A stretch of DNA of 64,000 nucleotides from Candidatus Saccharimonadota bacterium (GTDB taxonomy: Bacteria > Patescibacteriota > Saccharimonadia > Saccharimonadales > Saccharimonadaceae): the NCBI GenBank assembly GCA_016866755.1, contig VGLK01000001.1:1-64000 (forward strand), written 5' to 3'. Under the pieces are notes generated by a model, which saw nothing but the letters and a program-made list of their open reading frames with translations, had not been told where the DNA came from and made no database searches. Positions 36,828 to 47,380 of the stretch are shown piece after piece. The position numbers were made by a program, and so were the translations under genes. How positions within the stretch are numbered: position 1 is the first letter of the stretch; each line of letters opens with the position of its first letter.

Positions 36828-37875
36828 AGAAAATTCTAAAACACATGTATATGTTGGAATGAGTGGCGGTGTAGATAGTAGCTTAACGGCAGCGCTGTTA
36901 TGCGAGCAAGGCTACAGGGTTACCGGCGTGTATATGAAAAACTGGACCCAAGATCTTCCAGGAATGAAATGTCCATGGGCCGATGACCTTGCTGATGCAA
37001 AGCGGGTAGCGGTGCAGCTTGATATTGATCTTAAAGTATTTGATTTTGAGACAGAATACCGCGATATGGTCGTGCAGTATATGATTGATGAGTATAAACT
37101 TGGTCGCACGCCAAATCCAGATATTATGTGTAATCAAGAAGTAAAGTTTAAACTGTTTTTAGACGCAGCTCTTGCTGATGGCGCCGACATGATAGCCACT
37201 GGTCACTATGCCCAAACAAAAGCTGGCAAGCTTTTGAGAGCTGTCGATGACAATAAGGATCAAACGTACTTTTTGTATCGTGTTTCATCAGCAGCACTCT
37301 CTAAGGCGTTGTTTCCGCTTGGTGGCTACACTAAGCCGCAGGTTCGTCAAATGGCTGAGGCTCGCGGATTGTATACTGCAGGCAAAAAAGATTCTCAGGG
37401 CATTTGTTTTGTAGGTAAAATTGGTATTAAAGATTTTCTTAGCCAGTATGTAACTATAACACCTGGAGATATAAAAGATATCACGTCGATGCAAAGTGTT
37501 GGTCGTCACGATGGCGCGATATTTTATACGCTTGGGCAGCGACATGGCCTTGATATTGGTGGTGGTTTGCCGTATTACGTAGTTGGAAAAAATATGGATA
37601 AAAATGAAGTGTACGTTACCACAAACCTTAACGACCCTTCGCTTTGGCCAAAACAAATTTCGCTCACGCATATGCACTGGATTGGAGAACCGTACACGGG
37701 CAATAGGGTTGAGGTGCGGGTTCGTCATCGGGCGCCGTTAGCTCCGGCTACACTTTCTATACAAGGGTTAGATGCCAAGATAGAGCTTGACGAGGCGATA
37801 CGAGCCGTAACTCCAGGTCAGTCGGTGGTATTGTATGCAGATGATGAATGTTTAGGTGGCGGAATTGTTGCTTAG
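36811..37875 (+). CDS. mnmA: tRNA 2-thiouridylase MnmA
   Basis: MnmA adds sulfur at U34 of Lys, Glu and Gln tRNAs. Seen here: the PP-loop GMSGGVDSSLTAALL, PNPDIMCNQEVKF with the first catalytic Cys, TGHYA, and GICFVG with the second. ATG 36811 is preferred over the TTG at 36799. The gene overlaps the DUF218 gene and is two genes from the cysteine desulfurase that would supply its sulfur. It meets the GH16 gene tail-to-tail, with overlapping stops. Confidence 0.95.
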   Translation: MHNSDKENSKTHVYVGMSGGVDSSLTAALLCEQGYRVTGVYMKNWTQDLPGMKCPWADDLADAKRVAVQLDIDLKVFDFETEYRDMVVQYMIDEYKLGRTPNPDIMCNQEVKFKLFLDAALADGADMIATGHYAQTKAGKLLRAVDDNKDQTYFLYRVSSAALSKALFPLGGYTKPQVRQMAEARGLYTAGKKDSQGICFVGKIGIKDFLSQYVTITPGDIKDITSMQSVGRHDGAIFYTLGQRHGLDIGGGLPYYVVGKNMDKNEVYVTTNLNDPSLWPKQISLTHMHWIGEPYTGNRVEVRVRHRAPLAPATLSIQGLDAKIELDEAIRAVTPGQSVVLYADDECLGGGIVA

Positions 37876-39218
37876 AATTGTCGATGCTGTAGGCTGCGCA
37901 CCCAAGCACTAAAGGCACCAATAAGCGCTAAAACTTGCGCACCTATTACTACTGACATAATTGAAAATCCAGTTTGCGGTAACTCTTCTGGTGTCGATTG
38001 TGAGTGGCTAGATGAATCTTTAGTGTCAGCCTTTGCGGTTTGGTCATTGCTAGATTGTATTGGGTTGGTGTCGGTAGCGTCTCTTTCAGAATTAGTAGGC
38101 GTTGATTCGGTATTTACTACAGTTGTAGTAGTAATGGTATCTCGGCTAACCGGCGTAGAAGGTTCTGGCTGAGTTGAGGTTGAGCGAGAAGGCGTCGACT
38201 GGGTGGTAGATGGCTGAGGTGAAGATGCGGCTGGCGGCGCAGAAGATGTGGCACTTGTAGTAGCATCTTGCTTTTTGTAAACCCGAACGTAGTCAACTAG
38301 GAAGGTTTGCGGGGCGAAATCGCGACTATTATTTGGCGCTTCATGCCACTGATCGTTCTCTGGATACACCTGTGTGTTAATACGTAGCTGCCACGGTTCA
38401 TTCATAATGCGAGTAAATTGCTCTTTTGTGACACCGTCATAATCACTGTAGGTGTCAGAATTTTGGTCAGAATCATTTGGTCGGTGTGAAGTAATCGAAC
38501 CCACAATCTCACCATCAAGATAATAGGTAACTTTTTCTGCGTTCCATTCTACACCCCATGTGTGCCACGTGTCAGCGAGTGAACCGTTCACTTTTTTTAC
38601 GTGCTGACGGGATTTTAGTTTATCATTTTGACACACCACATGAGTTGTAGCGGTGCTAGCGTTGGTGCTTTTAGGATCGCTGTACCACTCTAAAATGTCG
38701 ATTTCGCCATAGGTTGGCGTGCACCAAGGGGATTGATTGCGCAACCAGTAGCCAGACCACAGTCCGCTAACGTCGGTTTTTGGTAGTTTTGCACGAATCT
38801 CCATTTTGCCTGATTGCCAGTTATAATCAGTTTTAATTTGCCCGCTCGAATAGCGTGTAGTTGTTCCGTTCGGGCATGGCGCGGTAGATTGATTACTAGC
38901 ACTTGGCAGTTCGCTTCCGGTAACGCAGTGGCGTTTAGTAATAATTTGCGCGTTACCATCACGAACAGTTACGTTAGCTGTTTGGTAGCGACCCTGATGG
39001 TGACTTTCGGTACTTCTTGTTTGGTTAACAACTGTCCATTTGCTGGAATCAACCGAAGAGCCGTTAAATTCATCACTCCAGACAAGTGAATATTGCGAAG
39101 CAGACTGGCTAACGGTTGGGTGTAGCGTTATAAAAGAAACGCTGGCAATAATACTGCCTAGCAAAAACAAACAAATAAGGGCTAATGGAGTTGATAGATA
39201 AGAGAGATAGTTTCGCAT
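37872..39218 (-). CDS. Sortase-anchored (LPQTG) GH16 beta-glucanase
   Basis: The 448-residue protein has a signal peptide, a GH16 catalytic domain (about residues 43-310) with the active motif GEIDILEW (ExDxxE), a Ser/Thr/Pro stalk of about 90 residues and a C-terminal LPQTG followed by a hydrophobic helix and a basic tail (RSLQHRQF). That is a complete cell-wall sorting signal. The catalytic type fits an endo-beta-1,3- or 1,3-1,4-glucanase. Products could be taken up and cleaved by the cytosolic GH5 enzyme at 21119. No sortase gene is in the window. Confidence 0.92.
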   Translation of the reverse strand: MRNYLSYLSTPLALICLFLLGSIIASVSFITLHPTVSQSASQYSLVWSDEFNGSSVDSSKWTVVNQTRSTESHHQGRYQTANVTVRDGNAQIITKRHCVTGSELPSASNQSTAPCPNGTTTRYSSGQIKTDYNWQSGKMEIRAKLPKTDVSGLWSGYWLRNQSPWCTPTYGEIDILEWYSDPKSTNASTATTHVVCQNDKLKSRQHVKKVNGSLADTWHTWGVEWNAEKVTYYLDGEIVGSITSHRPNDSDQNSDTYSDYDGVTKEQFTRIMNEPWQLRINTQVYPENDQWHEAPNNSRDFAPQTFLVDYVRVYKKQDATTSATSSAPPAASSPQPSTTQSTPSRSTSTQPEPSTPVSRDTITTTTVVNTESTPTNSERDATDTNPIQSSNDQTAKADTKDSSSHSQSTPEELPQTGFSIMSVVIGAQVLALIGAFSAWVRSLQHRQF

Positions 39219-39338: not shown

Positions 39339-41225
39339 ATGAACGCACAAGAAATTCGAAACGCCTATCTACAGTACTTCAAGCAGCGACAGCACGAAAT
39401 TATTGCCCGTGCGCCGCTTGTTTTAAAAAACGACCCAACAACTTTGTTTACAGGGTCGGGTATGCAGCCGCTGTTGCCATATCTTCTGGGCAAAACGCAC
39501 CCTGCAGGCGTTCGTCTTACCGACAGCCAAACGTGTTTGCGTGCCCAAGATATTGAAGATGTGGGCGATAATCGGCACACAACATTTTTTGAAATGCTTG
39601 GCAACTGGAGCCTAGGTGACTATTTTAAAGAGCAGCAAATTCGCTGGTTTTTTGAATTTTTAGTTGATGTAGTTGGACTTAATCCGCATAAAATTTATGT
39701 GACGGCTTTTATAGGTGATGCCGCTAACGGTATTCCTCGTGATGACACGGCAGCCACTATATGGCAGCAAGTATTTAACGAGCGCGGCATTGAGGCGAAA
39801 ATTGCTGAAATCGGTTCGCAAGCTGATGGCGACGCCCGTGGTATTTTTTCTGGCGAGCGTATTTTCTTTTACGACGACGGCGAAAACTGGTGGAGCCGCG
39901 GCGGCGGACTAGATAAAACGCCAATTGGCGATCCATGCGGGCCAGACAGCGAGGTGTTTTACGATTTTGGCCCTGAAAACCACGATGAAAGTTTTGGTAA
40001 AGCTCATCCAGCCAGCGATAGCGGTCAGTTTATGGAAATTGGTAACCAAGTCTTTATGCAGTATCGCCGCCTAGAAGACGGCAGTTTCGAACCGCTTGAA
40101 AAAATGAATGTAGATTTTGGCGGCGGACTAGAGCGAATTGCAGCAGCTCGCATTAACAGTCCCGATGTTTTTAAAATTAGCTTGCTGTGGCCAATTATTG
40201 AAAAACTACAGGATATTAGCGGTAAGCAATATAATGAGTACACCGAAAGTATGCGCGTGATTGCTGATCATTTGCGAGCAGCAGTATTCTTAGCGGTTGA
40301 CGGTGTGGTTCCGGCCAATAAAGAGCAGGGCTATGTAATGCGCCGATTGCTGCGCCGAGCAATTCGGTTTGCCTTTGATTTAGGCGTAGAGCAAAACTTT
40401 TTTGAAGAAATTGTACCAGTCATTGCCGATTTGTACGCCGACGATTACCCTGAAGTCGCCCAAAAGCGCGATGAAGTGATTGCCGTGCTAGTTAAAGAAG
40501 AAAAAGTATTCCGCCAAACGCTCAAAAAAGGCTTAAAGCAGCTTGAAAAATATACTACAACTGGTGTAAGCGGCGATGAACTATTTACTTTGTATGACAC
40601 ATTTGGTTTTCCTGTAGAGCTTTCTACCGAAGAGGTGCGTAAACAAAATATTGCAATTTCGAGCGACTGGCAAGCCGAGTTTGATGCAAAAATGGCCGAA
40701 CAGCGCCAACGCTCACAAACTGCCGCCAAAGGAACTTTTAAAGGTGGGTTAGAAGGCGGTACTATGGCGCACCGTAAACTGCATACCGCTAATCATTTAA
40801 TGTACGCCGCACTTAAGCAAGTTGTGGGTGAGCACGTTACCCAGCACGGCAGCAACATTACGGCCGAACGACTGCGCTTTGATTTTAATAATGATGGTAA
40901 AGTTACGCGCGAACAGCTAGATGAGGTTGAGCGCCGCGTTAATGAGTGGATTAAATGGGACTTGCCGGTTTCGTATAAAGAATATCCTACGGCGCAAGCG
41001 TTTGAAATGGGCGCAATTGGCGCTTTTGGTGACCGCTACGGTGATACTGTAAAGGTTTATCAAATGGGCGAAGGTGAACGGCGAGTAAGTTTTGAAATTT
41101 GCGGTGGACCGCATGCCGATAGTACTGGGCAGCTTGCAGAAGAGGGTGCTCGATTTAAGATTACGAAAGAAGAATCTAGCTCCTCTGGCATACGCCGCGT
41201 AAAAGCTGTCCTTGTTCGCGAATAG
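39339..41225 (+). CDS. alaS: Alanyl-tRNA synthetase, short form lacking C-Ala domain
   Basis: The class II catalytic domain (GSGMQPLLPYLLG, FFEMLGNWSLGDYF), the tRNA-recognition helices and the editing domain (HTANHLMYAAL; CGGPHADSTG) are all present. The protein stops at 628 residues after the SAD-like FKITKEESSSSGIRRV, whereas typical bacterial AlaRS runs to about 870 with the oligomerising C-Ala domain. The -10 TACAAT (39327-39332, extended TGC) ends 6 nt before the ATG, so it is leaderless. Confidence 0.95.
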   Translation: MNAQEIRNAYLQYFKQRQHEIIARAPLVLKNDPTTLFTGSGMQPLLPYLLGKTHPAGVRLTDSQTCLRAQDIEDVGDNRHTTFFEMLGNWSLGDYFKEQQIRWFFEFLVDVVGLNPHKIYVTAFIGDAANGIPRDDTAATIWQQVFNERGIEAKIAEIGSQADGDARGIFSGERIFFYDDGENWWSRGGGLDKTPIGDPCGPDSEVFYDFGPENHDESFGKAHPASDSGQFMEIGNQVFMQYRRLEDGSFEPLEKMNVDFGGGLERIAAARINSPDVFKISLLWPIIEKLQDISGKQYNEYTESMRVIADHLRAAVFLAVDGVVPANKEQGYVMRRLLRRAIRFAFDLGVEQNFFEEIVPVIADLYADDYPEVAQKRDEVIAVLVKEEKVFRQTLKKGLKQLEKYTTTGVSGDELFTLYDTFGFPVELSTEEVRKQNIAISSDWQAEFDAKMAEQRQRSQTAAKGTFKGGLEGGTMAHRKLHTANHLMYAALKQVVGEHVTQHGSNITAERLRFDFNNDGKVTREQLDEVERRVNEWIKWDLPVSYKEYPTAQAFEMGAIGAFGDRYGDTVKVYQMGEGERRVSFEICGGPHADSTGQLAEEGARFKITKEESSSSGIRRVKAVLVRE

Positions 41226-41315
41226 GGCGATAGAATCGTCACGCGTACCGTACTACTGCGGGCCGTGTGGTTTAGCTTTGTTTACAAGGCACTATCGTAT
41301 ATACTAGTAGTACTT

Positions 41316-42581
41316 ATGGTTTTCGAAAAAATTCGTGATTTTAGAAACAAACAAGCCGAATCTGACGATTTTATTGTGGGACTCGATATAGGAACAGAAT
41401 TTGTTAAAGCGCTCATTGCCAAAGTCGACGATGATGTACTGTCAGTGGTAGGTGTTGGTAGGCAACGGCAGTCGCTCGCTGATATGCACTCTGGGGCCAT
41501 TGCCGATATTGCAGCCGTGGTGCAAAACTGTGAAGCGGCGCTTTCACAGGCTGAAGACCAAGCTGGTTTACAGGCTAAGCGAGTAGTAATTGGCATTGCT
41601 GGTGAGTTAGTAAAAGGTGTTACGCATACCATTCGCTACAAGCGGCCACAACCAGATCGTCCGCTTGACACAGCCGAAATGGAATTTATCATTGAAAAAG
41701 TGCAGGAGCGAGCCCAGAAAAAAGCCCAAGCGCAAATTGCCCTAGAGACAGGTAATGATGAGGTGGAGGTAAAACTGGTTAACTCGGCACTAGTTAGTAT
41801 CCATATCGACGGTTATAAAATATCAAACCCAATTGGTTTTCAGGGTAAAGATATTTCGGTGCAAATTTACACCGCCTTTGCGCCAATGGTACATATTGGA
41901 GCGCTTGAGCGCGTAGCCGATGAGCTGGCGCTGGAGCTAATTGCCGTAGCAGCTGAGCCATTTGCGGTAAGCCGAAGCGTGCTCGGGGCAGATTCTGGAA
42001 GTACATTTACGGCCATTTTGGCCGACGTTGGTGGCGGCACTACCGATATTGCAGTAGTAAACGATGGTGGTGTTGAAGGTACTAAAATGTTTGGTATTGG
42101 GGGGCGCAGTTTTACGCGTACTATCGCACAGCAAATGGATCTTAGTTATAACGACGCTGAAAAACTAAAAGTAAACTTAGCCCACGAAAATTTGCGTAGC
42201 AACATTAAGCGCGACGTAGAAGCGGCAGTTGACCAAACGGTTGATGTATGGCTATCTGGCGTAGAGCTGGCCTTAGCGGAATTCGACTCCGTTGATCACC
42301 TACCTAATCGCATTTTACTTTGTGGAGGTGGCGCCAGTTTAGAGCAGGTTTCACAAAGGCTATCTACGAGCGACTGGTACAAAGAGCTGCCTTTTACTAA
42401 GCGACCGAGTGTGCAGCATATTAAGCCTAGCGATGTGGTGGGAATTAAAGATACTACCTCAACCATCAATGACCATACGTTTATTACGGCCATGGGTTTG
42501 CTGCGAGTAGGCTATGATACAATAGGCATTAGCGAAACAGGTAGCGTAAAAGAAAAAATTAATCGGATTTTGAAAATTTAA
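41316..42581 (+). CDS. Actin-fold ATPase, PilM/FtsA-like
   Basis: The product (421 residues) has the FtsA/PilM actin fold: FIVGLDIGTEFVKALIAK phosphate-1 loop, an SHS2-like insertion, DVGGGTTDIAVV phosphate-2 and ILLCGGGASLEQV adenosine motifs. It resembles cytosolic type IV pilus PilM or an FtsA relative. ATG 41316 is chosen because the -10 TATACT (41300-41305) lies inside the longer frame that begins at 41265. The neighbour is a bitopic membrane protein 4 nt downstream, as PilM is paired with PilN/PilO, although that neighbour does not obviously look like PilN. Confidence 0.85.
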   Translation: MVFEKIRDFRNKQAESDDFIVGLDIGTEFVKALIAKVDDDVLSVVGVGRQRQSLADMHSGAIADIAAVVQNCEAALSQAEDQAGLQAKRVVIGIAGELVKGVTHTIRYKRPQPDRPLDTAEMEFIIEKVQERAQKKAQAQIALETGNDEVEVKLVNSALVSIHIDGYKISNPIGFQGKDISVQIYTAFAPMVHIGALERVADELALELIAVAAEPFAVSRSVLGADSGSTFTAILADVGGGTTDIAVVNDGGVEGTKMFGIGGRSFTRTIAQQMDLSYNDAEKLKVNLAHENLRSNIKRDVEAAVDQTVDVWLSGVELALAEFDSVDHLPNRILLCGGGASLEQVSQRLSTSDWYKELPFTKRPSVQHIKPSDVVGIKDTTSTINDHTFITAMGLLRVGYDTIGISETGSVKEKINRILKI

Positions 42582-42584
42582 TCT

Positions 42585-44237
42585 ATGGCAAAAGACGTTT
42601 TATACATTGATGTCGAAGACGATATAACGGCAATTATTTCAAAAGTACAAGCTTCCAAAGAGTCGATAGTTGCCTTAGTGCCGCCAAAGCGAGTTGGTAT
42701 GCTGCAAAGTGCAGTTAATATGCGACTTTTGGCTCATGCGGCCAAAAAATCTTCTAAGCAACTGGTACTAATTTCAAGTAATTCTTCTCTTGTAGGGTTG
42801 GCGGCTGCGGCACAAATTCCTACCGCAAAAAATTTACAAACAAAGCCCGAGCTTGCAGATAGCCCTGAGCTAAAAGATGATGAAGAAGATATTATTGACG
42901 GCAGTGAATTGCCGATTGGTGAGCATGCCGCTACGGCGCCAGCTGCAATGGCGTCATCTGGTGAGGCTAAAAAAGAAGCGGCGGCCGTGGCAGCGGTGGC
43001 GCGTGAATCTGGCACTCGAGCAACACCACCCGAGCCGGGCAAGCCACTTCCTAAACCTAAGACTAAGCGAGGCGTCGCCAGTAAAGTACCAGATTTTAAC
43101 CGCTTTAGAAAGCGTGCAATTATTATTATCGTAGGCGCCTTATTGTTGATAGGGTTTTTGGTCTGGGCAATATTTTTTGCGCCACGAGCTACCGTAACTA
43201 TAACGGCGCGTACCACACCAGTTCGTGCAGAATCGGTTGTAAGTCTTGCGGCGGCAGATACTGCCGGTGAATCCGGTGATTCAATTGCTGCGGTACGTAA
43301 AGAGCAGACTGGTGAGCAGGCAGTAACATTTGAGGCTACGGGCACTAAAGATGTTGGTGAAAAAGCTCGCGGTACAATGACGCTGCGTCGTACGGCGGTG
43401 TCTAATCGACCAATAAGCATTCCGGCGGGCACGGCTTTTTCTGCAGGCGACTATACCTTTACAAGTACTGAAGCGGCAACACTTGAGGCAACGTCTATTG
43501 GCGGTGACGGAATTGTACAGGATAGCGCAACTGTTGATGTGGTGGCGACCGAAAATGGCGCAGAATATAATTTATCAGCTCGCGCTTACGAGTCGACGGT
43601 AGACGGCTTTAATGCTCGTGGTAGTGCGATGAGCGGCGGATCGAGCAGGACGGTAAAGGTAGTCAGTCAAGAAGATGTGACGGCTGCAGCTGCAAAACTT
43701 GACGAGCAGACAGATCGAAATGCTAGAAATACATTGCGCGATTCATTTGAGCCGGGCGTACGGGTAATCGACGAAAGCTATAGTGAGTCGCGTTCAAACC
43801 CTCAGTCATCTCCGTCTGTAGGTGAAGAGGCGAATAGCGCTACGCTAACGGCAACCGCCACTTATAGAATGTATGGTATTGAAGACGAAACGTTAGATAA
43901 CTTTTTGGCGGCAAGGTTTAGCGAGCAAATAGAAAATGCTGATGAGCAAAAAATATACGAAAATGGCAAAGACGAAGTTGTATTTAGTGAATTTGCCGCT
44001 GGCGACACCCCTACTGTTCGGGTAGCGGCGGAAGGAGAGCTTGGACCTCAAATTCGTGATAATGATATTAAACAGCTTGCGGCCGGTAAGCGACTCGGTG
44101 AAATTCAATCGACGATAGAAAGCATTGATGGCGTCGAAAACGTAGATGTTGACTTTTGGCCGTTTTGGGTGCGGGTAGTGCCCGATAACCCAGAGCGCGT
44201 ATCGGTAGAGTTTAATGTGCAGCGTGCCAATGAGTAA
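42585..44237 (+). CDS. Bitopic membrane partner of the PilM/FtsA-like ATPase
   Basis: The 550-residue protein has a cytosolic N-terminal domain (about 1-85) shaped like an alpha/beta unit (DVLYIDVEDDITAIISKV, ALVPPKRVGML, KQLVLISSN), an Ala/Glu/Pro-rich linker, one membrane helix (about 184-203) and a large external region (about 205-550) of beta-rich modules ending FWPFWVRVVP. The N-terminal part would meet the actin-like ATPase; the external part would span toward the wall. It is a type seen in CPR genomes without known function. Coupling to ruvX is by 8-nt overlap. Confidence 0.75.
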   Translation: MAKDVLYIDVEDDITAIISKVQASKESIVALVPPKRVGMLQSAVNMRLLAHAAKKSSKQLVLISSNSSLVGLAAAAQIPTAKNLQTKPELADSPELKDDEEDIIDGSELPIGEHAATAPAAMASSGEAKKEAAAVAAVARESGTRATPPEPGKPLPKPKTKRGVASKVPDFNRFRKRAIIIIVGALLLIGFLVWAIFFAPRATVTITARTTPVRAESVVSLAAADTAGESGDSIAAVRKEQTGEQAVTFEATGTKDVGEKARGTMTLRRTAVSNRPISIPAGTAFSAGDYTFTSTEAATLEATSIGGDGIVQDSATVDVVATENGAEYNLSARAYESTVDGFNARGSAMSGGSSRTVKVVSQEDVTAAAAKLDEQTDRNARNTLRDSFEPGVRVIDESYSESRSNPQSSPSVGEEANSATLTATATYRMYGIEDETLDNFLAARFSEQIENADEQKIYENGKDEVVFSEFAAGDTPTVRVAAEGELGPQIRDNDIKQLAAGKRLGEIQSTIESIDGVENVDVDFWPFWVRVVPDNPERVSVEFNVQRANE

Positions 44238-44634
44238 AACTTTTCTTGCACTTGATATTGGCGAAAAACGAATTGGTGTAGCGCGCGGCGACAGTAACGT
44301 TAAGATTGCTGTTCCACTTTCAGCAATTCATGTTGATGGTGGAGAGAAAAACTTGCTACATAAACTGTTACAGCAAGAAATGCCGGCAGCGGTAGTGGTT
44401 GGTTGGCCGCGTAATTCTCGTGGCGAGCCCACTGCGCAAACTGCATATGTTCAACATGTTATTGAAGAGCTTGCCATTGAAGTTCCAATTATTTATCAAG
44501 ATGAATCACTCACGAGTGTTATTGCAAAAGAACGCCGTGGCGATTCAAAACAAACGCGAAAGAGTGGCCAAATAGATTCTGAGGCTGCCAGCATAATTTT
44601 ACAGGATTACCTAGAGGAGACTTATGGATATTAA
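44230..44634 (+). CDS. ruvX: RuvX/YqgF Holliday junction resolvase-like protein
   Basis: The small RNase H-like protein has the family motifs LALDIGEKRIGVARGD, VVGWPRN and YQDESLTSV, then a C-terminal acidic SEAASIILQDYL. YqgF proteins act in 16S rRNA 5' processing or recombination. ATG 44230 overlaps the preceding stop and is preferred over the earlier in-frame codon at 44215. Confidence 0.92.
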   Translation: MSKTFLALDIGEKRIGVARGDSNVKIAVPLSAIHVDGGEKNLLHKLLQQEMPAAVVVGWPRNSRGEPTAQTAYVQHVIEELAIEVPIIYQDESLTSVIAKERRGDSKQTRKSGQIDSEAASIILQDYLEETYGY

Positions 44635-45907
44635 ACCGCCACGACGACCACAACAAATAGCGCGTAATCAATCGCTTCCGCCAGTTAATGCAGGTTCGCA
44701 GCGACCGCCACAAACTACATATGCTACAAATTCTGCATATACATCACCGCAGTATAATTCAGCAGGGCAACAGCAATCGTCGGCTAATCAGCCTTCGGAT
44801 TCTGCGCCGCAAAATACCATTTTACCGCCTGCGCAAACTCCATCAAGCTCGCCGCGTCGCCCAAGAAAAAAACGCATATTGTTAGCTGTTATTGCTGGTG
44901 TAGTGCTACTTATTATTACAGCCATGACAGTATGGGCGCTAAACCAACTGCAACCCGTAGATAGTACTTCGAGCGAAAAAACCCGTGTAACGATTGCAAG
45001 TGGTACGTCACCGCGACAAATTGCTGCCACATTAGAGGACGAAGGCGTGATACGTAATCAGACTGTATTTTATTGGTTTACCCGATTAAGTGGCGTACAA
45101 AATTCTTTACAGGCAGGTACCTATCAGCTGGCTCAAAATGAATCTGTGCAAGAGATAGTTGATCACCTACAGGCCGGTAAATCTGATATGATGACGATTC
45201 TCTTTTATCCAGGAGCAACGTTGTATCCAACCGATCGCACGCCAGATGACAGACGGACTGATGTTAAAACTATGCTTTTACGAGCGGGCTATACCGAAGA
45301 AGAGATTGCGGCTGGACTTACTGCAAGCTATAGTCATCCGCTTCTAGCCTCTAGGCCAAATCAAGCCGATTTAGAAGGTTACGTATATGGTGAGACATAT
45401 TCATTCGGAGGCGGCGCCAGTGTAGGTGACGTACTAAAATATACGTTTGACGAATTTTATAAACAAATTGAGGCAGAGGGTATTGAAGATAAATTAGCAC
45501 AGCGCAATATGACACTGCATGAAGGTATTATTTTGGCCTCAATTGTGCAAAAAGAGGTTTCAGGTTACGAGGATATGCGTAAAGTCGCTCAGGTATTTTA
45601 CAGTCGACTCGATATAGATATGCCGCTTGGTGCCGATTCGACGTATCAGTATATTGCCGATAAGACCGGTGTTGAACGGCACACCAGTCTCGACTCCCCG
45701 TATAATACACGCATTGTAAAGGGTTTAACGCCTGGACCAATTGCTAGTCCTTCAATTAACGCCTTAAAGGCGGTGGCAAATCCTGCATCGACCGATTATC
45801 TGTACTTTGTAAGTGGAGACGATGATATTAACTATTTTTCGCATACGAACGAAGAGCACGAGCGGCTGGTTGCGGAGCACTGCATTAAAAAGTGTGCAGT
45901 CTACTAA
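44624..45907 (+). CDS. mltG: Endolytic transglycosylase MltG
   Basis: A disordered Pro/Gln-rich cytosolic segment of about 80 residues precedes one membrane helix (about 84-106) and the YceG-like domain. Seen are a LysM-like part (VTIASGTSPRQIAATLEDEG), LEGYVYGETY, the catalytic Glu in ILASIVQKEV, and the conserved TSLDSPYNTRIVKGLTPGPI. MltG cuts nascent glycan strands and sets their length. It overlaps ruvX by 11 nt; the mltG-ruvX pairing is common. Confidence 0.94.
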   Translation: MDIKPPRRPQQIARNQSLPPVNAGSQRPPQTTYATNSAYTSPQYNSAGQQQSSANQPSDSAPQNTILPPAQTPSSSPRRPRKKRILLAVIAGVVLLIITAMTVWALNQLQPVDSTSSEKTRVTIASGTSPRQIAATLEDEGVIRNQTVFYWFTRLSGVQNSLQAGTYQLAQNESVQEIVDHLQAGKSDMMTILFYPGATLYPTDRTPDDRRTDVKTMLLRAGYTEEEIAAGLTASYSHPLLASRPNQADLEGYVYGETYSFGGGASVGDVLKYTFDEFYKQIEAEGIEDKLAQRNMTLHEGIILASIVQKEVSGYEDMRKVAQVFYSRLDIDMPLGADSTYQYIADKTGVERHTSLDSPYNTRIVKGLTPGPIASPSINALKAVANPASTDYLYFVSGDDDINYFSHTNEEHERLVAEHCIKKCAVY

Positions 45908-46180: not shown

Positions 46181-47380
46181 ATTCGTAATCAACAGCAATT
46201 GCCTGAGGTGAACGCCACGTTTGCACAGACAAAAGATGAGATGTTGGCCCGTAAGAAGGCTGATACACGAAAATCTGCGTTTATTGCCTATGGAGGTGTG
46301 GCTATTTTAGTCCTTTCATTGGTAGCGACAGGTTACAACGATTTAACTGCCTCTCGTACCGAGGGAAATGTTGCCTACGTGCAGCAATCTAATCCATTAG
46401 ATCAACAGGTTGCTTCTGTTGATACACTAGCAGCGGCTACTATCGCTTCTAATATTGCCGAATCTGTACAGTTGCCGGTAGCTGGTGACTTACGTGAAGA
46501 ATCAAGTTCAATACAAATAAAGACTGAACTAGCACAAAATGATGCTGAAATGATTACTAAGCCACAAATCATGCAGCCAACATCTGATAATCGTACACTC
46601 ATTACGTACACTACAGTTGAAGGTGATAGCGTTCAGTCGGTGGCTAGCAAGCACGGTATTTCTGCCGATACGGTAAAATGGGCGAATAACCTTGCGACCG
46701 ATGGCCTCGATGCAAATAAAGTACTTACCTTGCCGCCTGTTGACGGAGTTATTTATGAGGTAAAGAGCGGTGATTCAATTGAATCGATTACCGAGAAATA
46801 CAAAGCCGACCGCGAGCGTGCCATTCTATTTAACGACCTCGAAACACAGGAACTTGCTGACGGTATGAAAATTGTCTTACCTGGTGGCGTACTACCCGAG
46901 AATGAACGTCCAGGTTATCAGGCACCTAATTCGCGAAACCGTACTACAGCTCCATCAGTAACTTCTGTGCCGTCTACATCATTCCGCTACGGTGCTAGTG
47001 GTTCATCTGGTGGCAACACAATAACTGGCTATGGTACGCCTATGCTTTCGGGAAATCGCTATGCATTTGGTAACTGTACGGCATACGTGTACGACAAGCG
47101 TCAACAAGCAGGGCGTCCGGTTGGCGGATTATGGGGTAATGGTAACCAGTGGCATATTTCAGCTGTATCTAATGGCTTTACCGTAAACGGTACGCCTGCA
47201 GTTGGTTCTATTTTGCAATCAATTGCCGGTGGTGGTGGCTATGGTCACGTGGCTTACGTAGAGCGCGTTAACAGTGATGGCTCGGTATTAATTAGCGAAA
47301 TGAATTTTGCCGGATTTAATACCGTATCAACTCGCACCCTATCTGCATCAGAAGCAAGTATGTACAACTACATTCACTAA
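46181..47380 (+). CDS. LysM-CHAP cell wall hydrolase
   Basis: After a membrane anchor (about residues 33-51) come two LysM glycan-binding units (TYTTVEGDSVQSVASKHG; IYEVKSGDSIESITEKY), a Ser/Thr linker and a CHAP domain with the catalytic Cys in FGNCTAYVY and His in YGHVAYVE. It cleaves peptidoglycan at the cell surface. The start is unusual: no ATG, GTG or TTG lies within reach of AGGAGA (46169-46174) except ATT at 46181; the TTG at 46199 is 24 nt away. Either a rare ATT start or a weakly primed TTG is used. Confidence 0.88.
   Translation: MRNQQQLPEVNATFAQTKDEMLARKKADTRKSAFIAYGGVAILVLSLVATGYNDLTASRTEGNVAYVQQSNPLDQQVASVDTLAAATIASNIAESVQLPVAGDLREESSSIQIKTELAQNDAEMITKPQIMQPTSDNRTLITYTTVEGDSVQSVASKHGISADTVKWANNLATDGLDANKVLTLPPVDGVIYEVKSGDSIESITEKYKADRERAILFNDLETQELADGMKIVLPGGVLPENERPGYQAPNSRNRTTAPSVTSVPSTSFRYGASGSSGGNTITGYGTPMLSGNRYAFGNCTAYVYDKRQQAGRPVGGLWGNGNQWHISAVSNGFTVNGTPAVGSILQSIAGGGGYGHVAYVERVNSDGSVLISEMNFAGFNTVSTRTLSASEASMYNYIH

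Follow-up and report, generated by a model that had tools for sequence, protein, structure and literature searches.

A conserved Patescibacteria gene pair encoding an FtsA-family ATPase and a membrane partner with a predicted outer beta-barrel

The window (the whole stretch of DNA analysed, 64,000 nucleotides) harbors a gene for an actin-like ATPase of 421 amino acids, followed after 3 bp on the same (plus) strand by a gene for a bitopic membrane protein of 550 amino acids, here called the partner. The alaS gene lies 90 bp upstream of the ATPase gene, the partner gene overlaps ruvX by 23 bp, and ruvX overlaps mltG by 11 bp. Co-transcription with ruvX and mltG, as proposed in the initial annotation, would agree with the operon-like gap and the two overlaps. 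The features of the locus and the evidence for each are:

39339-41225, plus strand: alaS, conserved upstream neighbour (gene order in relatives)
41316-42581, plus strand: FtsA-family actin-like ATPase, 421 aa (Pfam and NCBIfam profiles, tree, profile comparison)
41385-41408, plus strand: phosphate-1 motif of the ATPase, residues 24-31, DIGTEFVK (invariant residues, 23 sequences)
42024-42047, plus strand: phosphate-2 motif of the ATPase, residues 237-244, DVGGGTTD (invariant residues, 23 sequences)
42537-42578, plus strand: C-terminal ATPase segment, possible FtsA-like amphipathic membrane helix (suggested by hydrophobic moment)
42585-44237, plus strand: bitopic partner protein, 550 aa (ORF, profile, hydropathy, model)
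42585-42854, plus strand: N-terminal cytosolic alpha/beta domain of the partner, residues 1-90 (pLDDT about 90; weak fold matches only, Z about 5)
42867-43085, plus strand: disordered linker of the partner, residues 95-167 (pLDDT below 50)
43095-43178, plus strand: transmembrane helix of the partner, residues 171-198 (structure model, hydropathy)
43356-43640, plus strand: outside beta-barrel domain of the partner, baseplate J/GlxA type, residues 258-352 (fold matches; Pfam in relatives)
43641-44234, plus strand: outside C-terminal alpha/beta domain of the partner, residues 353-550 (pLDDT 93 folded alone)
44215-44634, plus strand: ruvX, conserved downstream neighbour, overlaps the partner gene (gene order in relatives)
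44624-45907, plus strand: mltG, conserved downstream neighbour (gene order in relatives)

The AlaS protein encoded upstream is short (628 amino acids) and consists of the catalytic and SAD domains with little more; complete alaS reading frames at related Patescibacteria loci are mostly 550-690 amino acids long as well. Elsewhere in the window, positions 37872-39218 (minus strand) encode a family 16 glycosyl hydrolase that bears a sortase-type LPQTG motif close to its C-terminus, and a lysM-TM7 RNA (Rfam RF03005, 46026-46173) precedes a gene for a LysM-CHAP wall hydrolase (46199-47380). The segment 59325-64000 has a higher G+C content (about 54%), a composition which suggests a different origin, and carries minus-strand genes that look as if they encode a secretion system and wall peptidases.

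The genome is that of a Saccharibacterium. The closest relatives of the pair, among the best 80 matches, are mostly named Saccharibacteria, and nearly all of the ultrasmall Patescibacteria carry the partner, many of them with the ATPase gene beside it. A single-sequence search detected the partner in 164 of the 192 Patescibacteria genomes, and a partner profile matched 185 of the 192, including 161 of the 163 good ones. Counting strong matches only, among the 96 genomes in which the partner was listed together with a strongly matching ATPase, 92 have the ATPase gene upstream of the partner gene, on the same strand and within 2.5 kb; in two of the remaining four the genes are split between contigs, and the other two, which belong to one genus, show a rearrangement. 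In the Saccharibacteria loci the ATPase gene is directly upstream of the partner gene in all cases (80/80), ruvX is directly downstream in 77 of the 80, and mltG occurs within four genes in 79. Since relatives occur in most of the phylum and the gene order is conserved, the pairing is not due to chance. At one locus (L173, 4362-6026, minus strand) the partner is split into three ORF pieces beside an intact ATPase gene, which may reflect an assembly error or decay.

The ATPase reading frame extends from the ATG at 41316, a start that fits the N-termini of relatives, to the stop at 42581. A TATACT box ends 10 bases 5' of the start codon (41300-41316), and because of this short distance the mRNA may be leaderless. 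Profile searches agreed with the initial description as a PilM/FtsA-like ATPase, with FtsA the nearer of the two: the protein matches Pfam FtsA (E 3e-13, 50.6 bits, above the gathering score of 31.8) and PilM_2 (E 2e-9), as well as NCBIfam ftsA (E 1e-35, 123.4 bits, below the equivalog cut-off of 175.85) and pilM (E 7e-13, 48 bits, below the cut-off of 133). Pfam FtsA matches 23 of the 23 sequences of the window ATPase family. In hhalign comparisons the family scored 99.9% with FtsA over 364 columns and 99.0% with PilM over 296 columns; judged by profile, FtsA is the closer of the two. A quick maximum-likelihood tree of 44 proteins resolves three separate groups, namely the window ATPase family, FtsA and PilM (SH-aLRT 98-99), the placement of a few rows being unsure because of very long branches. 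The residues D24, G26, T27 and K31 of the phosphate-1 motif and D237, G239, G240, G241, T242 and D244 of the phosphate-2 motif are invariant in all 23 separate ATPases. The C-terminal segment of the window ATPase has a hydrophobic moment of 0.53, as compared to 0.44-0.76 in the main clade and 0.31-0.41 in PilM, a value that is unexceptional against that protein's own background.

The partner possesses a single hydrophobic span in the middle of the protein (residues 174-206 in the hydropathy profile, a helix at 171-198 in the structure model). Because the N-terminal side of the span carries 8 K/R versus 1 D/E, the protein is probably oriented with the N-terminus inside and the C-terminus, ca. 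352 residues, outside; the single span claimed initially was confirmed, and the initial estimate was about 340 external residues. The window partner has no Pfam or NCBIfam match above cut-off, including Baseplate_J. It had further been described as not resembling PilN or PilO, and no profile likeness was detected by hhalign (2.4% and 0.7%, respectively), in a weak test where the positive control of PilN against PilO likewise failed (2.9%).

In the predicted structure, the barrel formed by residues 258-352 matches GlxA (5lqi_A, Z 12.7, rmsd 2.0, 91 aligned) and a phage Mu baseplate chain (9ki1_H, Z 10.9, rmsd 1.9, 85 aligned), and many of the top matches to the partner in a viral structure library are baseplate J proteins. 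Related sequences point to the same fold: Pfam GlxA matches 14 of the 26 partner-family members. Baseplate_J matches five of the 26 (E up to 0.1) and, at E up to 0.01, 10 of the 12 fused proteins described below. An extension of the baseplate J likeness to the whole outer part was rejected, as alignments over residues 258-548 give an rmsd of ca. 25-39 Å. Residues 353-550, folded alone, gave no solved-structure match above Z 2.9 and none that was convincing, baseplate proteins included, and for these two reasons we limit the baseplate J claim to the barrel. The barrel is not phage-specific either, since it is also carried by GlxA, a galactose-oxidase homolog. The partner shares this domain with GlxA (PF21110), but no oxidase domain match was found in the partner. 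Bitopic proteins named as baseplate J/gp47 family occur in Chloroflexota and may be a lead to forms of the partner outside the phylum.

In another lineage, the pair is replaced by single proteins of 691-794 amino acids, 12 of which were aligned. Over the first 245 residues they match the window ATPase family specifically (hhalign 99.1%, E 6e-19; FtsA 74%, PilM 1%), and the rest corresponds to the partner without the part before its membrane span (hhalign 100%, E 9e-59). Since genes that adjoin elsewhere are fused here, ATPase and partner would act together; at the level of sequence, we regard the fusion as strong evidence of joint action and the strongest computational sign of it in this work. 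The fused N-terminal halves have lost the residues of both phosphate motifs, so that ATP turnover is dispensable in this lineage. In the two fused-lineage loci tested, a sortase gene is located between the fusion gene and ruvX. Sortase is reported to be near ubiquitous in Microgenomates (PMC6744442), and our guess, given the sortase, is that the fused lineage belongs there.

Other genomes show further arrangements. Many encode the outer part with no adjoining ATPase gene, usually directly after alaS or one gene further; some of these proteins keep the N-terminal domain of the partner and others do not. Those with the N-terminal domain and no adjoining ATPase are found at L119, L129, L134, L142, L150, L157, L160 and L166, which implies that the ATPase is not required everywhere. 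At four loci (L131, L151, L164 and L165) the outer module is adjoined by a PilB-type ATPase (T2SSE, E 6e-118). At the same four, a membrane-protein-like gene of ca. 320-360 amino acids precedes the PilB-type gene, and what looks like thrS lies nearby. Because the ATPase is adjoining, missing or of the PilB type depending on the genome, the outer module is the conserved core of the system and the cytosolic side varies. A function of the partner's N-terminal domain as ATPase docking site was also considered and is unsupported by co-occurrence.

A division role, one of those suggested initially, would make the ATPase a second, FtsA-like paralog that acts together with FtsZ or the machinery of the septal wall, with the partner as its FtsN-like outer arm. 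Like FtsA (TIGR01174/PF14450), the window ATPase is actin-like, has intact ATP motifs and possibly ends in an amphipathic helix, and FtsA, rather than PilM, is the nearer of the two to its family; FtsZ, moreover, was detected in 185 of the 192 genomes. Such near-universality makes co-occurrence with ftsZ uninformative, and the suggestion is weakened by the location of the canonical genes: ftsA and ftsZ adjoin each other on another contig (C2, L117), and in this genome and ten others examined the ftsA gene beside ftsZ is a different one from the window ATPase gene. The window family furthermore differs from FtsA in forming a separate clade, in scoring below the NCBIfam ftsA cut-off (123 versus 176 bits) and in having its own bitopic partner, and the fused form is retained in G065, a 99% complete genome where FtsZ was not detected. 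Identity with canonical FtsA was rejected on account of the separate ftsA-ftsZ locus and the tree, and we consider a division module unlikely. The chances are lower still for a type IV pilus or related secretion machine, in which the ATPase would be an extra PilM and the partner would replace PilN and PilO. PilM is of the same superfamily as the ATPase, PilM-PilN-PilO likewise combines an actin-like ATPase with a bitopic protein encoded beside it, and the PilB-type ATPase next to the outer domain in a few genomes fits a pilus-like machine. However, the genome encodes pilB-pilC-pilM-pilN-pilO on contig C4 (L116) and a second pilM on C2 (L118; E 2e-32 against the first copy). The two genes behind this second copy occupy the pilN and pilO positions but have no sequence match to the first pilN and pilO. 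The window ATPase belongs to a clade separate from PilM and scores below the pilM cut-off, and the partner differs by its large barrel-bearing outer part and by the lack of PilN/PilO similarity in the weak test given above. Co-occurrence with pilC, proposed initially as a check, speaks against the pilus as well: PilC (PF00482) had no match in 20 of the 192 genomes, and nine of these 20 still have the two genes side by side, among them two single-contig assemblies of 99% (G024) and 97% (G060) completeness. The pair is therefore independent of type IV pili, and with pilM loci elsewhere in the genome a pilus role was discarded.

We give least credence, and very little, to a device for host contact or injection that would descend from the baseplate of a phage tail. 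The barrel does match the baseplate J proteins of contractile phages (baseplate J/gp47/gp6, PF04865), but it is the one domain matched, the final 200 residues, taken alone, have no convincing counterpart among baseplate proteins, and GlxA has the same barrel. Unlike baseplate J, the partner is membrane-anchored and chromosomal, and the locus has no further tail gene, the neighbors being alaS, the ATPase gene, ruvX and mltG. A tblastn search against phage and plasmid records gave no match. A common barrel is no demonstration of phage origin or of a tail-like function.

The best explanation overall, which we favor by a modest degree of confidence, is a transmembrane scaffold of the cell envelope that the ATPase organises. 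Its parts differ in strength. That ATPase and partner form one transmembrane complex, apart from pili and from canonical FtsA-FtsZ, is very likely, and the role of this complex as an envelope scaffold is plausible, with doubt slightly outweighing belief. In the proposed mechanism, the C-terminal helix of the FtsA-like ATPase probably holds it at the inner face of the membrane, membrane binding being suggested by the amphipathic C-terminus, and by analogy with FtsA the ATPase would assemble in an ATP-dependent manner. The ATPase would then gather and position the partner by binding its cytosolic part directly, and the partner would set the baseplate-J-type barrel and the alpha/beta domain on the outer face of the membrane, where the outer domains probably assemble into a scaffold that builds or holds the cell envelope. 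We infer the envelope role from the topology, mltG, the sortase in the fused lineage and the near-universal retention. Of the envelope complex initially proposed, a dedicated ATPase with a bitopic partner that is widespread in CPR bacteria stands firm, and membership of an envelope complex is probable. The suggested link to cell-wall growth remains a hint, its basis being the gene order with mltG, which neighbors most loci with a separate ATPase, and the sortase gene in one lineage; the adjacency of mltG and ruvX may be unrelated to function. A functional parallel only is offered by FcmB-FcmC of filamentous cyanobacteria, where cell shape can be set by an actin-like protein together with a dedicated, interacting partner at the membrane, FcmB originating from plasmid-partition actins (PMC12645912).

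No description of the pair turned up in the literature that was searched. Actin-like ATPases with a bitopic partner are already known as a kind; what is new is the barrel on the partner, the spread across the phylum and the fused form with its inactive ATPase half. A broader proposal, held tentatively and with more doubt than belief, is that Patescibacteria share a phylum-wide, undescribed envelope machine in which an FtsA/PilM-type ATPase drives a barrel-bearing membrane scaffold, the ATPase being intact, fused and inactive, missing or replaced by a PilB-type ATPase according to lineage. The Saccharibacteria gene TM7x_02800, which was named ftsA and is higher in recovery (PMC10768705), may be the orthologue of the window ATPase, a guess from the locus numbers since ftsZ there is TM7x_00785. 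Two Saccharibacteria species are now genetically manipulable (PMC10633639, PMC12206443). With the partner in 161 of 163 good genomes and a cytoskeletal ATPase adjoining it in many, the pair offers a concrete and testable entry point.
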